From Gemmatimonadota bacterium (GTDB lineage Bacteria; Gemmatimonadota; Gemmatimonadetes; Longimicrobiales; Gaopeijiaceae): a DNA stretch of 64,000 nt. This document shows positions 31,259 to 36,908 of this stretch, piece after piece. The stretch is taken from contig JAJDTB010000035.1 in assembly GCA_022827345.1 (NCBI GenBank), positions 62,001 to 126,000 on the forward strand, given 5' to 3'. The position numbers and the translations under genes were made by a program. Below the pieces are notes generated by a model that saw only the letters and a program-made list of their open reading frames with translations, was not told the origin of the DNA and searched no databases. The first letter of the stretch is position 1; every line of letters begins with the position of its first letter.

Positions 31259-31591
31259 CTAGCCGTCGGCCACGACCGGCTCCATTTCCTCAGGCTGCCT
31301 GTACCAGAAGATCGTGTCGATCAACAGCTCTTCCTTCACCATCATGTCGTCGACCGTCTCCTGGAAATCCAGAGTATTCCTTCCCCGGAAATTCTCCCAG
31401 TCAGGGCCTCCCAGCTCCTTGGGCAGGGCGTCGAAGACGATGTAGATGTCCACGAGATCGTCGCCGTACAGAAAGTCCGTGCCCGGTTCGAGCCGGATGT
31501 CGGTCGGATGGCTCCCGAAGTGGTCGCTACATGCCCTCTTCACGATCTCCTCGATCCTCGTCAACTCTCTCTGTTTCACCATTCTCGCCAT
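31259..31591 (-). CDS. Small protein of unknown function
   Basis: A 110-residue cytoplasmic protein. It has a basic N-terminal helix (MARMVKQRELTRIEEIVKRA), an alternating alpha/beta core with DDLVDIYIVFDALPKELGG, and an acidic tail ending EEMEPVVADG. I recall small proteins of this general look beside HEPN-domain genes, and a possible HEPN remnant lies just upstream on the same strand. This link is weak. The Nramp-like gene lies downstream, about 120 bases away. Confidence 0.6.
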   Translation of the reverse strand: MARMVKQRELTRIEEIVKRACSDHFGSHPTDIRLEPGTDFLYGDDLVDIYIVFDALPKELGGPDWENFRGRNTLDFQETVDDMMVKEELLIDTIFWYRQPEEMEPVVADG

Positions 31592-32021: not shown

Positions 32022-32090
32022 ATGGCAACCGACTTGACGCCGGACCGCCGTTCGTCATCGAACGGTTACATCCCGGACGGGATCCCGTAG
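32022..32090 (+). CDS. Possible 22-residue leader peptide
   Basis: A short frame (starting MATDLTPDRR, ending YIPDGIP) with a strong AAGGAG ribosome-binding site about 7 bases before its ATG. It stops 14 bases before the TTG that opens the large flavoprotein gene, which has no visible ribosome-binding site of its own. It could provide translational coupling. Alternatively it is the displaced N-terminus of that protein in another frame. Confidence 0.35.
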   Translation: MATDLTPDRRSSSNGYIPDGIP

Positions 32091-32104: not shown

Positions 32105-33934
32105 TTGCTGAAACCCACCGACACACGGAATCCCGACCACTACCACCGCGTGGTGGACTGCCAGTGGGGCTGTCCGGCCCACACGAACGTGCCCGAGTAC
32201 ATCCGGCTCATCGCGAACGGGCAGTACACCGAGTCGTACCTGCTCAACCGGAAGTCGAACATCTTTCCGGGGATTCTCGGACGAACCTGCGACCGTCCCT
32301 GCGAACCGGTGTGCCGCCGGGTGCGGCTGGATGGCGAACCGGTCGCGATCTGCCGCCTGAAGCGGGTCGCCTCCGATCTGCGCGACGACATCACGGGCTT
32401 CCTGCCGACCATTCCCGAGGAAAAGAACGGCAAACGCATCGCCTGCATCGGCGCGGGCTGCGCATCGCTCACGGTCGCCAACGACCTGATGCCGCTCGGC
32501 TACGAGGTCACGATCTTCGAGAAGCTCGCCAAGCCCGGCGGTCTGATGTGGACCAACATCCCCGAATTCCGCCTACCGGCCAAGGTTCTGTGGGAAGAGA
32601 TCGACTACATCCTCGACATGGGCGTCGACCTGCGCCTGAACAGCCCCATCGACAGCCTGGCCGCGCTCCTGGAAGAGGACTATGACGCCGTCTTCATCGG
32701 TTCGGGCGCGCCCAAGGGCAAGGAACTGAACCTGCCGGGCCGCTGGGACTCCGAGCAGATCCACATCGGCATCGAGTGGCTGGAATCGGTGCGCTTCGGG
32801 CACATCGACAGCTGCGGGGACCGCGTGCTGGTGATCGGCGTCGGCAACACCGCGATGGACTGCTGCCGCACCGCGCAGCGCCTGGGCGCCAGCGACGTCA
32901 AGGTCATGGCGCGCAAGACCAAGCCGTATTTCAAGGCGTCGCCGTGGGAGCTCGACGACGCGATCGAAGAGCTGGTCGAGGTCCTGGAGAACCACTCGCC
33001 GTCGCGGTTCATCATCGAGGACGGCAAGTTGGTGGGGATGGAGTTCGACCTGGTCACCTGGACACCTGGCGAGAACGGGCGGCTGAAGGCCGAGGTCCAC
33101 GACAGCAAGATCATCGAGTGCGACGAGGTGATCCTGGCGATCGGGCAGGACACCGCGTTCCCGTGGATCGAGCGCGACATCGGCATCGACTTCAACAAGT
33201 GGGAGATGCCGATCGTCGACAAGACGACGTTCATGACTTCGCGCCCCGGTGTCTTCATGGGCGGCGATGCGGCGTGGGGCCCCGAGAACATCATCTGGGG
33301 GGTCGAGCACGGGCATCAGGCCGCGATCTCGATCCACGCGTGGTGCGAGGGCCGGCCGCTGACCGACCGCCCGCCCGAAGGCATGAACCTGGTCAGCCAG
33401 AAGATGGGACTGCACGAGTGGTCGTACTCCAACGACTACGACGAGGCCGAGCGCGTGAAGATGCGCCACGTGGATCTGCAGGAGCGCTTCAAGCGCATGG
33501 ACATCGAGGTCGAGGAGGGATTCGACTTCGAACAGACGCTGACCGAGGTGGAGCGCTGTCTCAACTGCGACATCCAGACGCACTTCGAGGCGCACCTCTG
33601 CATCGAGTGCGACGCCTGCATCGACATCTGCCCTCTCGACTGCCTGACGATCACCCACAACGGGGCGCGGGAAGACCTTTCCCAGCGGCTGACGGCCCCG
33701 CTCCTCAACCCCGACGAGCCCCTGTTCATCTCCGATGACCTGCCGCAGACCGGGAGGATCATGGTCAAGGACGAAGACCTCTGCATTCACTGCGGCCTCT
33801 GCGCCGAGCGATGTCCGACGGCGGCCTGGGACATGCGCAAGTCCGACCTTCTGGTCCCCTACGCGGGGCTCGGTGCGGGCGAGATGCATCCGAGCCCCCT
33901 CTCTGTCGTCCTCGCGGGAACGGCGATCGGCTGA
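32105..33934 (+). CDS. GltD-like FAD/NAD(P)H oxidoreductase fused to a 4Fe-4S ferredoxin domain
   Basis: A 609-residue electron-transfer subunit. The N-terminal part has the Cys pattern of glutamate synthase small subunits (CQWGCPAH, and GRTCDRPCEPVCRR) that binds 4Fe-4S clusters. An FAD-binding motif IACIGAGCASLTVAND and a nucleotide motif VLVIGVGNTAMDCCRTAQRL follow. The C-terminus has two ferredoxin motifs, CIECDACIDICP and CIHCGLCAERCP. Such a chain would move electrons between NAD(P)H and the 2-oxoacid oxidoreductase encoded next. The TTG start follows the conserved-looking LKPTDTRNPDHYHRVVDCQW. The next gene overlaps the stop by one base (TGATG). Confidence 0.9.
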   Translation: MLKPTDTRNPDHYHRVVDCQWGCPAHTNVPEYIRLIANGQYTESYLLNRKSNIFPGILGRTCDRPCEPVCRRVRLDGEPVAICRLKRVASDLRDDITGFLPTIPEEKNGKRIACIGAGCASLTVANDLMPLGYEVTIFEKLAKPGGLMWTNIPEFRLPAKVLWEEIDYILDMGVDLRLNSPIDSLAALLEEDYDAVFIGSGAPKGKELNLPGRWDSEQIHIGIEWLESVRFGHIDSCGDRVLVIGVGNTAMDCCRTAQRLGASDVKVMARKTKPYFKASPWELDDAIEELVEVLENHSPSRFIIEDGKLVGMEFDLVTWTPGENGRLKAEVHDSKIIECDEVILAIGQDTAFPWIERDIGIDFNKWEMPIVDKTTFMTSRPGVFMGGDAAWGPENIIWGVEHGHQAAISIHAWCEGRPLTDRPPEGMNLVSQKMGLHEWSYSNDYDEAERVKMRHVDLQERFKRMDIEVEEGFDFEQTLTEVERCLNCDIQTHFEAHLCIECDACIDICPLDCLTITHNGAREDLSQRLTAPLLNPDEPLFISDDLPQTGRIMVKDEDLCIHCGLCAERCPTAAWDMRKSDLLVPYAGLGAGEMHPSPLSVVLAGTAIG

Positions 33935-35838
33935 TGGTCATTACCAACGGCGAGCGGCCCGCGCCCCGCATCAACGACCTCGCCTTCAAGATCGGCACAG
34001 TCAACGGAACCGGGTCGGCCAGCGCCAACGGACTGCTGCGGCGCGCGATCTTCCGCATGGGGATTCCGGTTTCGGGCAAAAACCTCTTCCCGTCGAACAT
34101 CCAGGGGCTGCCGACCTGGTACGAGATCCGCGCCAACGCGAGCGGCCACACCGCGCGCACGGAGCGCTTCGACCTGGTCGTCGCGATGAACCCGGCCACC
34201 TACGCCCGCGACGTCGCCGAGGTGACATCGGGCGGCTGGGTCATGTACGACTCCACCTGGCCGCTGCCCAGGGAGCTGAACCGCGACGACATCACCTTCC
34301 TGGGCGTCCCGCTCGCGAAGATGACGGTCGACAACTTCAAGGGATCGCGCGTCCGGATCCTGATGAAGAACATCTGCTACGTGGGCGCGCTCGCGGCCCT
34401 GCTCGACATCGACATGGAGATCGTGCGGGGGCTGCTCAAGGAGACCTTCGCCGCCAAGGCGAAGCTGCTCGACGCCAACTACCTTGCGATCGACCTGGGG
34501 TACGAGTACGCGCTGGAGCACTTCGACTGCCCCCTGCCCGTCCGCCTCGAGCCGATGGACGGCAACGAGGACTCGATCGTCATCGACGGCAACACGGCTG
34601 CGGCGCTCGGGTGCGTCTACGCAGGCGCGACGGTCGCGGCGTGGTACCCGATCACGCCGTCCACCTCGCTGGTCGACGCCTTCACCGCCTTCTGTCACCA
34701 GTTCCGCAAGGATCCGGAGACCGGCCGTAACCGGTTCGCGATCATCCAGGCGGAAGACGAACTGGCGGCCGCGGGGATGGTGATCGGGGCCGCGTGGGCC
34801 GGGGCGCGCGCGTTCACCTCGACGAGCGGGGCCGGGCTGTCGCTGATGAGCGAGTTCATCGGGCTGGCGTACTACGCCGAGGTGCCGTCGGTGTTCTTCG
34901 ACGTGCAGCGGGTGGGGCCGTCGACGGGGATGCCCACGCGGACCCAGCAGGGCGACATCCAGTTCGCGGCCTACGCGTCGCACGGTGACACGAAGCACAT
35001 CGTCATCTTCCCCGCGAATCCGCACGAGTGCTTCGAGATGGCGGTGGAGGCGTTCGACCTGGCAGAGCGGTTCCAGACGCCGATCTTCGTCCTTTCGGAC
35101 CTGGACATCGGCATGAACGACTGGGTCATCCCGAAGCTCGAATGGGACAACTCGTATCGGCCGGATCGTGGCAAGGTGCTGACCGCGGAGGAGCTGGAAG
35201 CGGCAACGGGGCCCTTCCACCGCTACCTGGATGTGGACGGCGACGGGATCCCGTGGCGGACGCTGCCGGGGGTACATCCCAGGGGGGCGTACCTTACGCG
35301 CGGCTCCGGTCACGACCGTTACGGCAACTACACCGAGGACTCGGAGCCGTATGCGGACGTGCTGGCGCGTGTGGGACGCAAGATCGAGCGAGCGGCCGCG
35401 CACCTGCCGGCACCCGAGATTCGGCTGCGCGAAGGTGCGGAGATCGGGCTGGTGACGATCGGCGGGTGCCGCGGGGCCGTGCTGGAGGCGGTGGACGCGT
35501 TGGCCGAGCGCGGCGTCGAGGCGGACTACATGCGGGTGCGGGCGTTTCCGTTCCACCCCGATGTGGAGCCGTTCCTGGCCGCTCACGAAGTCAACTTCAT
35601 CATCGAGCAGAACCGCGATGGGCAGTTGCGCAAGCTGCTGATCGCCGAGACTGGAGCGAAGAAGGATGCGCTGGTGTCGATCCGCTACTTTGGCGGCTAC
35701 CCGATGAGCTGCCATCATGTGATGGACGGGCTCGCGTCGTATCTGGATGGGGCCGCCGCTGCCGCCCCGGACGGTACCGGCCCGCACGAAGCGGCTTCGG
35801 GCGCGCTCGCCCCGGCCCGCGAAGGAGCGACCCCGTGA
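33934..35838 (+). CDS. korA: 2-oxoacid:acceptor oxidoreductase, fused gamma-alpha subunit (KorA type)
   Basis: About 634 residues from the ATG at 33934. The N-terminal part is the gamma domain (FKIGTVNGTGSASANGLLRR onward), and the alpha domain begins near residue 230 with AWYPITPSTSLVDAFTAFC and continues through EDELAAAGMVIGAAWAGARA and TSTSGAGLSLMSEFIGLAYY. This gamma-alpha fusion is the layout of 2-oxoglutarate (and some pyruvate or indolepyruvate) ferredoxin oxidoreductases, which interconvert a 2-oxoacid, CoA and acyl-CoA plus CO2. The C-terminal tail is low-complexity Ala/Gly/Pro. Its stop overlaps the GTG of korB. Confidence 0.9.
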   Translation: MVITNGERPAPRINDLAFKIGTVNGTGSASANGLLRRAIFRMGIPVSGKNLFPSNIQGLPTWYEIRANASGHTARTERFDLVVAMNPATYARDVAEVTSGGWVMYDSTWPLPRELNRDDITFLGVPLAKMTVDNFKGSRVRILMKNICYVGALAALLDIDMEIVRGLLKETFAAKAKLLDANYLAIDLGYEYALEHFDCPLPVRLEPMDGNEDSIVIDGNTAAALGCVYAGATVAAWYPITPSTSLVDAFTAFCHQFRKDPETGRNRFAIIQAEDELAAAGMVIGAAWAGARAFTSTSGAGLSLMSEFIGLAYYAEVPSVFFDVQRVGPSTGMPTRTQQGDIQFAAYASHGDTKHIVIFPANPHECFEMAVEAFDLAERFQTPIFVLSDLDIGMNDWVIPKLEWDNSYRPDRGKVLTAEELEAATGPFHRYLDVDGDGIPWRTLPGVHPRGAYLTRGSGHDRYGNYTEDSEPYADVLARVGRKIERAAAHLPAPEIRLREGAEIGLVTIGGCRGAVLEAVDALAERGVEADYMRVRAFPFHPDVEPFLAAHEVNFIIEQNRDGQLRKLLIAETGAKKDALVSIRYFGGYPMSCHHVMDGLASYLDGAAAAAPDGTGPHEAASGALAPAREGATP

Positions 35839-36908
35839 GTTACATCAAGAAGCCCCGCATCCACCACCCGGCCCTGACCCGCAACCGGCTCGGGCTGACC
35901 CGGCGCGACTACGAAGGCACCATGTCCACCCTGTGCGCCGGGTGCGGCCACGACTCGATCACCGCAGCGATCATCGAGGCCTTCTGGGAGCTGGAGATCG
36001 CGCCGCATGAGGTGGCCAAGACCTCTGGGATCGGGTGCAGCGGGAAGACGCCCACCTACTTCCTGAAGGAAGCGCACGGCTTCAACGGCGTGCACGGGCG
36101 GATGCCGTCGATCACGACCGGGGCGCACGCCGCCAACCGCGAGCTCGTGTGCATCGGGGTCTCGGGCGACGGCGACAGCCTCTCGATCGGCATGGGCCAG
36201 TTCGCGCACGTCGTGCGGCGCAACGTGGACATGCTCTACATCATCGAGAACAACGGCGTCTACGGGCTCACCAAGGGGCAGTTCTCGGCGTCGGCCGATG
36301 TCGGTTCGACCGCCAAGCGCGGCCAGGTCAACCGGGAGCATCCCATCGACTCGGTCCTCCTCAGCCTGAATCTGGGCGCGGGATTCGTGGCGCGGAGCTT
36401 TTCCGGCGACAAGGAGCAGCTCGTCCCCATCCTCAAGGCGGGTCTGCGCCACCGGGGGTTCGCGCTGATCGACGTGATCTCGCCTTGCGTCACCTTCAAC
36501 GACCACCGCGGCTCGACCAAGAGCTACCAGTACACGCGCGACAACTACAACCAGCTGGTGTACGCCGACTTCGTGCCGCCGGCCCAGGAGATCGCGACTT
36601 CGATCGAGGTCGGCGACGCGCGCTCGGTGAGAATGCACGACGGAAGCCACATCACATTCCGCAAGGTGCCCGAGGACTACGACCCCACCGACCGCGACCA
36701 GGTGTACGGCTACATCAGGGAGCGCCAGCGTGCCGGTGAAGTCGCGACCGGGCTGCTGTACGTGGAGCCCGCGCCGCAGGATGCGACCGACGCGGTCGAC
36801 TTCCACGGCCTGCAGGGGACGGTGGACGAGCCGCTGGCGAACTACCCGTTCGAGGACCTGTGTCCGGGGGCGGACGCGCTGGAGAAGCTGCAGAAGCGGT
36901 TTCGGTAG
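35835..36908 (+). CDS. korB: 2-oxoacid:acceptor oxidoreductase, beta subunit (KorB type)
   Basis: About 357 residues with the thiamine-diphosphate motif GDGDSLSIGMGQF ending at the NN pair in YIIENNGVYGLTKGQ. The N-terminal CAGCGHDS supplies Cys residues usual for cluster binding in this subunit. The chain is longer than many KorB proteins, with a C-terminal extension of about 60 residues. The GTG at 35835 overlaps the korA stop and has AAGGAG about 8 bases upstream; the frame open upstream runs inside korA. Together with the two preceding genes it would form a three-subunit NAD(P)-linked enzyme. Confidence 0.92.
   Translation: MSYIKKPRIHHPALTRNRLGLTRRDYEGTMSTLCAGCGHDSITAAIIEAFWELEIAPHEVAKTSGIGCSGKTPTYFLKEAHGFNGVHGRMPSITTGAHAANRELVCIGVSGDGDSLSIGMGQFAHVVRRNVDMLYIIENNGVYGLTKGQFSASADVGSTAKRGQVNREHPIDSVLLSLNLGAGFVARSFSGDKEQLVPILKAGLRHRGFALIDVISPCVTFNDHRGSTKSYQYTRDNYNQLVYADFVPPAQEIATSIEVGDARSVRMHDGSHITFRKVPEDYDPTDRDQVYGYIRERQRAGEVATGLLYVEPAPQDATDAVDFHGLQGTVDEPLANYPFEDLCPGADALEKLQKRFR

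Follow-up and report, generated by a model that had tools for sequence, protein, structure and literature searches.

A conserved KorC-KorA-KorB gene set in a Gemmatimonadota genome that probably encodes a 2-oxoacid:NADP+ oxidoreductase

The DNA analysed here, referred to as the window, is a stretch of 64,000 nucleotides from a Gemmatimonadota bacterium (GenBank assembly GCA_022827345.1, contig JAJDTB010000035.1, positions 62,001 to 126,000 of the forward strand). It contains three overlapping genes, korC, korA and korB, that probably encode a KorABC-type 2-oxoacid:NADP+ oxidoreductase, most probably for 2-oxoglutarate, in which the flavoprotein KorC would act as a linear wire to NADP+ without electron bifurcation. 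The KorC-KorA-KorB branch occurs widely, and its gene set is tightly conserved. The three genes are as follows:

32105..33934, plus strand: KorC, a GltD/NfnL-type flavoprotein of 609 residues with a TTG start, containing an N-terminal Fer4_20 domain, Rossmann folds for FAD and NADP(H), an RCLNC segment and a C-terminal 2x[4Fe-4S] ferredoxin domain
33934..35838, plus strand: KorA, the fused gamma-alpha subunit of 634 residues, with its ATG at 33934-33936
35835..36908, plus strand: KorB, the thiamine pyrophosphate (TPP) and [4Fe-4S] subunit of 357 residues, with a GTG start at 35835

The reading frames bear out the arrangement described in an earlier note on this DNA. One base is common to korC and korA, the A of the korC TGA (33932-33934) being the first base of the korA ATG, and the korB GTG overlaps the korA stop by four bases (GTGA). 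In all 122 close homologues, the window included, a start codon falls on the first or second residue of the KorC reading (117 at residue 2 and 5 at residue 1 only), and 64 of the 122 have an additional in-frame start farther upstream. An ATG at 32023, which lies in another frame and would have implied an N-terminal frameshift in KorC, was dismissed as the korC start because all of these homologues have a start codon at one of those two residues.

A tblastn search with the window's KorC located the trio on two plasmids, namely plasmid 2 of Aromatoleum aromaticum EbN1 and a Variovorax plasmid, and found KorC matches on two further Variovorax plasmids. When the EbN1 KorC was compared with named genomes, at least 595 relatives were confirmed; the best 80 of these are nearly all labelled Proteobacteria and include the cultured genera Aromatoleum, Propionivibrio, Caldovatus, Neoroseomonas, Sphingomonas and Bradyrhizobium, several of which are aerobes. 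These 80 relatives, two plasmid loci, 40 stretches from the window's phylum and the window itself gave 123 records, all found via KorC. KorC, KorA and KorB are colinear in 108 of the 123, and the four-base korA/korB overlap is present in 84 of those 108. In a further 13 records KorC-KorA is seen and the locus ends within KorA or directly behind it. One other record (L123) has KorC without KorA on 1.4 kb of contig, and KorA at the edge of another contig of the same genome; the remaining miss (L161) is a distant KorC-like gene, which was kept in alignments A1 and A4 and left out of the cysteine conservation, neighbour and start-codon counts.

The association also holds at the level of genomes. 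Genomes whose KorC-like matches reached only 30-40% (8) or whose KorA matches were all distant (48) were first set aside. Of 200 genomes of the phylum, 93 then have this KorC and 92 this KorA, with all 92 falling within the 93. The sole exception (G141) carries a KorC piece in an open frame of 270 residues. In a tree of 106 KorC-linked KorAs and 17 KorAs without an adjacent KorC, the KorC-linked sequences form one clade (106/106, support 0.995). The trio falls into two deep branches, one comprising the KorAs of the window's phylum (37/37, support 0.972) and the other, mostly from Proteobacteria, those of named genomes and plasmids (69/69, with weak support of 0.682). Beside the 17 other KorAs, no KorC match at E 1e-3 was detected in the stretches examined.

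KorC matches the Pfam domains Fer4_20 (56 bits), Pyr_redox_2 (72.3 bits) and Fer4_7, a 4Fe-4S dicluster domain (36.5 bits), and scores 385.3 against the NCBIfam model PRK12771, below its cut-off of 516. The Fer4_20 domain together with FAD and NADP(H) Rossmann folds is the combination found in GltD/NfnL NADPH flavoproteins. The cluster-binding regions of KorC are:

32156..32380, plus strand: Fer4_20 domain, KorC residues 18-92, with invariant C19, C23, C62, C66, C70, C83 and K86; two predicted [4Fe-4S] clusters would be bound in part here
33557..33568, plus strand: C485-C488 of the RCLNC motif of KorC
33599..33814, plus strand: two CxxCxxCxxxCP ferredoxin motifs at the KorC C-terminus, C499/502/505/509 and C560/563/566/570

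Seventeen cluster-region cysteines (C19, C23, C62, C66, C70, C83, C485, C488, C499, C502, C505, C509, C513, C560, C563, C566 and C570) are kept in at least 121 of 122 KorC sequences. Eight of them are used by the two ferredoxin motifs, and most of the others correspond to cluster cysteines of the GltD modules of NfnL and of StnC, a subunit of Sporomusa ovata StnABC. Because of this correspondence, and because two [4Fe-4S] clusters are assigned to the GltD part of StnC in PMC10482914, KorC is predicted to carry four [4Fe-4S] clusters. The earlier note had listed two 4Fe-4S motifs; the two C-terminal motifs are indeed present, and as a total the number falls short, the invariant cysteines of the Fer4_20 and RCLNC regions being enough for two more.

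Residue conservation was further assessed in alignments of representatives chosen from the 123 records (A1, 72 KorC; A2, 54 KorB; A3, 39 KorA). In KorC the Rossmann glycines are invariant, R270 is present in 72/72 representatives and K277 in 71/72. An AlphaFold2 model of KorC, built from 70 sequences, has a mean predicted local distance difference test score (pLDDT) of 87.7 and a predicted template modelling score (pTM) of 0.89, with residues 435-441 below a pLDDT of 50. Its top fold match is NfnABC subunit A (9bov; Z 33.9, root-mean-square deviation (rmsd) 6.5, 504 aligned residues), effectively tied with StnC (8oh5; Z 33.4, rmsd 6.3, 507 aligned) and with 9n5v/9n5u (Z 32.5/32.2). NfnL, GltD and DPD trail at Z of about 24-28, and Foldseek ranks the structures alike.

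KorA contains the Pfam domains POR and POR_N and scores 553.6 bits against the NCBIfam model TIGR03710 (cut-off 482.75), while KorB contains TPP_enzyme_C. By sequence, the top-scoring solved enzymes for both subunits are 6n2n/6n2o, which we take to be the Magnetococcus marinus 2-oxoglutarate enzyme (OGOR), and the Sulfolobus 2-oxoacid:ferredoxin oxidoreductases (OFORs). The residues named for the Sulfolobus enzyme StOFOR in PMC5020499 were mapped by counting along HMMER alignments. In KorA, T241 (in YPITP), T331, S54 and R326 are invariant in 39/39 aligned representatives, R326 being the substrate arginine and the counterpart of StOFOR R344. In KorB, K71, L145, K147 and the four cysteines expected for one [4Fe-4S] cluster, C34, C37, C68 and C218, are invariant in 54/54. 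A fused gamma-alpha subunit with POR and POR_N, a TPP-binding beta subunit with four cysteines, the YPITP threonine and the substrate arginine are together the marks of a KorAB-type OFOR. The StOFOR1 lysine that matches KorB K71, K49 of the beta subunit, is reported to be required for 2-oxoglutarate and dispensable for pyruvate, and D468 of the alpha subunit likewise to be required for 2-oxoglutarate (PMC5020499). KorAB has the first of these residues and not the second, and its specificity for 2-oxoglutarate is likely, though short of certain. A C-terminal extension of KorB was considered as a docking site for KorC and dropped, as the KorB of a KorC-less pair is long as well (341 residues).

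We propose that KorAB would bind its substrate, a 2-oxoacid that is most probably 2-oxoglutarate, on thiamine pyrophosphate and decarboxylate it oxidatively with CoA, giving succinyl-CoA and CO2. Single electrons would leave through the [4Fe-4S] cluster of KorB, cross the two ferredoxin-type clusters at the KorC C-terminus, and then pass through the two clusters predicted in the KorC N-terminal domain to FAD, which would reduce NADP+ by hydride transfer. The KorC flavin would have one entry and one exit. In the cell the complex may provide a parallel, NADPH-yielding step of the oxidative tricarboxylic acid (TCA) cycle. The earlier note had predicted a three-subunit enzyme delivering electrons to NAD(P)+ through a dedicated GltD-ferredoxin flavoprotein, and the domains, operon conservation, KorC-linked clade, co-occurrence and predicted fold all argue for both.

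Several observations pull the other way. The position of StOFOR1 D468 is occupied by serine or threonine in KorA, and the 2-oxoglutarate-specific Hydrogenobacter KorAB is reported to have leucine at that position and to be without the lysine (PMC5020499). Since Hydrogenobacter KorAB has neither residue, the K71 and D468 positions are weak markers of specificity, which makes us slightly less confident of the explanation as a whole. In the 'YRR' loop of GltD/NfnL, the second arginine corresponds to S, R or K in 42, 17 and 13 of 72 KorCs, respectively; because of this variation, NADP rather than NAD as the acceptor is a prediction. Aromatoleum buckelii has, besides the trio, two KorAB pairs without an adjacent KorC. 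Finally, a 2-oxoglutarate dehydrogenase (OGDH) E1 model is also matched in 89 of the 93 phylum genomes with KorC, so the need for a closed TCA cycle does not by itself explain the trio. In the four genomes without such a match it could be the main route.

The host genome bears on the direction of the reaction. In the window's own genome, which is 97% complete, the trio gives the only POR_N match, and the only Fer4_20 match at E 0.001 is KorC itself; on this search the genome showed no small subunit of a GltD-type glutamate synthase. The genome also contains an OGDH E1 match (E 3.7e-289), citrate synthase and two proteins of the COX1 family, a family that also includes NO reductases. Because of these genes an oxidative role that yields NADPH is a better fit than CO2 fixation, and the suggestion that the enzyme runs in reverse for CO2 fixation, which the earlier note had coupled to a check for reductive TCA genes, finds no favour here. 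A search for ATP-citrate lyase with PF16114 gave no match in the genome, and its control was also without a match anywhere; the search is therefore uninformative and a reductive TCA cycle in the host is not formally excluded.

The same enzyme and wiring might instead serve another 2-oxoacid, such as pyruvate, a branched-chain or aryl 2-oxoacid, or a ring-cleavage product, a reading that we consider unlikely. The serine or threonine at the D468 position and the weakness of the marker residues leave room for it. OFORs can also be broad, as StOFOR is reported to accept both pyruvate and 2-oxoglutarate (PMC5020499), and a review attributes to a Sphingomonas KC8 2-oxoacid oxidoreductase activity on an estrogen meta-cleavage product (PMC6678751). 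However, KorB K71 and L145 match StOFOR, which takes 2-oxoglutarate, and not the pyruvate enzyme DaPFOR, as these are described in PMC5020499. The gene neighbourhood likewise offers no catabolic context, the commonest neighbour family occurring in 10/122 loci within the flanks examined. This count was made on raw open reading frames, with at least 3 kb upstream in 106/122 loci, mostly a few kb past the trio downstream, and at least 7 kb past korC in 5/122. The top-scoring solved enzyme, 6n2n/6n2o, is also presumably one for 2-oxoglutarate. A link to benzoyl-CoA reductase was considered and rejected, as the own genome has no match to the HGD-D family, used as its stand-in. A self-contained TCA-level enzyme, rather than a catabolic accessory, would fit these observations better.

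It is more doubtful that KorC works apart from KorAB, as an NADPH:ferredoxin reductase that happens to be encoded in the same operon, with KorAB using free ferredoxin. The 17 loci with KorAB and no adjacent KorC speak for such independence, as does the Mycobacterium tuberculosis KorAB, whose physiological acceptor was not found in the study concerned (PMC2773412). Against it stand the co-occurrence of KorA with KorC in 92 of 93 genomes and the single clade of KorC-linked KorAs. KorC moreover has its own ferredoxin domain, and a fusion of GltD and PorD adjoins PorC-PorA-PorB elsewhere (L170). We give a similarly low probability to KorC as a two-way junction, in which electrons from 2-oxoglutarate would pass either to free ferredoxin or, via the lysine-tuned cluster and FAD, to NADP+. 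If this were so, the TCA cycle of respiring cells could supply low-potential ferredoxin or NADPH as required, or such cells could instead carry out an NADPH-driven carboxylation when another acceptor couples it.

The earlier note had also raised electron bifurcation. Under flavin-based bifurcation or confurcation, the KorC FAD would split electrons between NADP and a ferredoxin, or would drive the reductive carboxylation of succinyl-CoA. The KorC GltD module is homologous to the bifurcating NfnL, its nearest folds belong to complexes titled electron-bifurcating, and KorC R156 matches NfnL R201. StnC has this arginine too, so R156 does not discriminate between bifurcating and non-bifurcating modules; the GltD-like FAD of StnC is reported to be non-bifurcating (PMC10482914). 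At the FAD-proximal cluster, StnC has a lysine, K170, where NfnB (NfnL) has a glutamate (PMC10482914), the ligand numbered E126 in PMC9503767. Counted by hand along the alignments, this position is K86 in KorC, a lysine in 72/72 representatives as in StnC, and an extra invariant cysteine, C83, stands three residues before it. No NfnS-type partner was found among the flanking window genes scanned, the rest of the genome lying outside this search, and across the loci only the trio is conserved. As no second flavoprotein is present among these flanking genes, the observations are read more simply as a linear path to NADP+. Coupling would also not be needed, electron transfer from 2-oxoglutarate to NADP+ being downhill. 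Bifurcation by KorC is thus very improbable.

The window genes scanned around the trio encode Nramp, ApbA, HNH_2, Peptidase_M24 and Esterase proteins and one protein without a match. Between korC and the gene for the Nramp-like transporter there is a frame of 110 residues without a Pfam match (window 31259-31591, minus strand). In two single-contig genomes (G040 C1 and G161 C1), the KorC match is in two parts far apart and on opposite strands, as if by inversion or misassembly. The distant KorC-like gene (L161:14-2366, from G064), at 34% identity, has serine in place of C509 and keeps the other cluster cysteines. It lies just 3' of a short nitrite/sulfite-reductase-like frame, and no KorAB was found in the 8 kb examined.

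The trio bears on how OFORs of the 'anaerobic type' feed the redox pools of aerobes; the M. tuberculosis KorAB, for example, is reported to be stable under aerobic conditions (PMC2773412). In the trio studied here a likely acceptor arm is encoded within the operon itself. Its presence beside an OGDH E1 match in 89 of the 93 phylum genomes that have KorC suggests a distinct role, most simply NADPH supply. KorC may also represent a StnC-type adaptor used without a bifurcating module.

The solved enzymes 6n2n/6n2o and StOFOR (5b46-5b48) share with KorAB the fusion of gamma and alpha subunits, a beta subunit with TPP and [4Fe-4S], and the active-site residues. StOFOR differs in having two subunits only and in passing its electrons to free ferredoxin (PMC5020499). 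6n2n matches KorA and KorB, whereas the matches to KorC are found in other structures. In StnC (8oh5) and NfnABC-A (9bov, 9n5u), as in KorC, a GltD-like FAD/NADPH module is followed by an RCL-C or RCM-C segment and a lysine is present at the FAD-proximal cluster, and the structural match extends to residue 578 of the KorC model, past the GltD part. StnC is described as an NADPH module that supplies an Fe-S chain, but differs in that it feeds an FMN-bearing bifurcating module and has a NuoG/Fdh-like part (PMC10482914). KorC is about half its length and is encoded alongside KorAB; at the position of C83, StnC has alanine. NfnL (NfnSL 5jfc, 5jca, 4ylf), GltD and DPD share the Fer4_20 and FAD/NADP(H) folds with KorC, but for the chains of NfnL and GltD the alignment stops at about residue 424 of the model. 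In Pyrococcus NfnL the ERCLQC segment comes before the GltD fold, whereas the corresponding segment follows it in KorC, NfnABC-A and StnC; NfnL also has the glutamate ligand instead of K86 (PMC9503767).

A second pairing of a flavoprotein with an OFOR was observed in Propionivibrio limicola (L170:4044-8586), where PorC-PorA-PorB precedes a fusion of GltD and PorD that scores 766.9 bits against PRK12771, exceeding its cut-off. This too is a GltD-ferredoxin protein beside an OFOR, but that OFOR belongs to a different branch with separate gamma and alpha subunits, and KorC falls below the PRK12771 cut-off.

The closest known counterpart is the 2-oxoglutarate:NADP+ oxidoreductase of Azoarcus (Aromatoleum) evansii, cited under that name in PMC8163825 (J Bacteriol 2003;185:6119). 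That enzyme is reportedly a three-subunit KorABC with FAD. The substrate, acceptor and subunit plan predicted for the trio are the same, and KorA, KorB and an FAD/NADP(H) flavoprotein, the set that characterises this kind of enzyme, are encoded together here. The sequence comparison runs via A. aromaticum EbN1, whose trio is 52/50/57% identical to that of the window, and A. buckelii, which also has the trio, only. The setting differs in that the window's host has no HGD-D match. Because A. buckelii also has its two KorC-less KorAB pairs, the genes for the A. evansii enzyme are not certain, although it likely belongs to the KorC-linked branch. A literature search found no paper on a korCAB operon, a weak negative given that most subscription papers were outside its reach. 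Enzymes of this kind are already known, and what is added here is a widespread and conserved branch.

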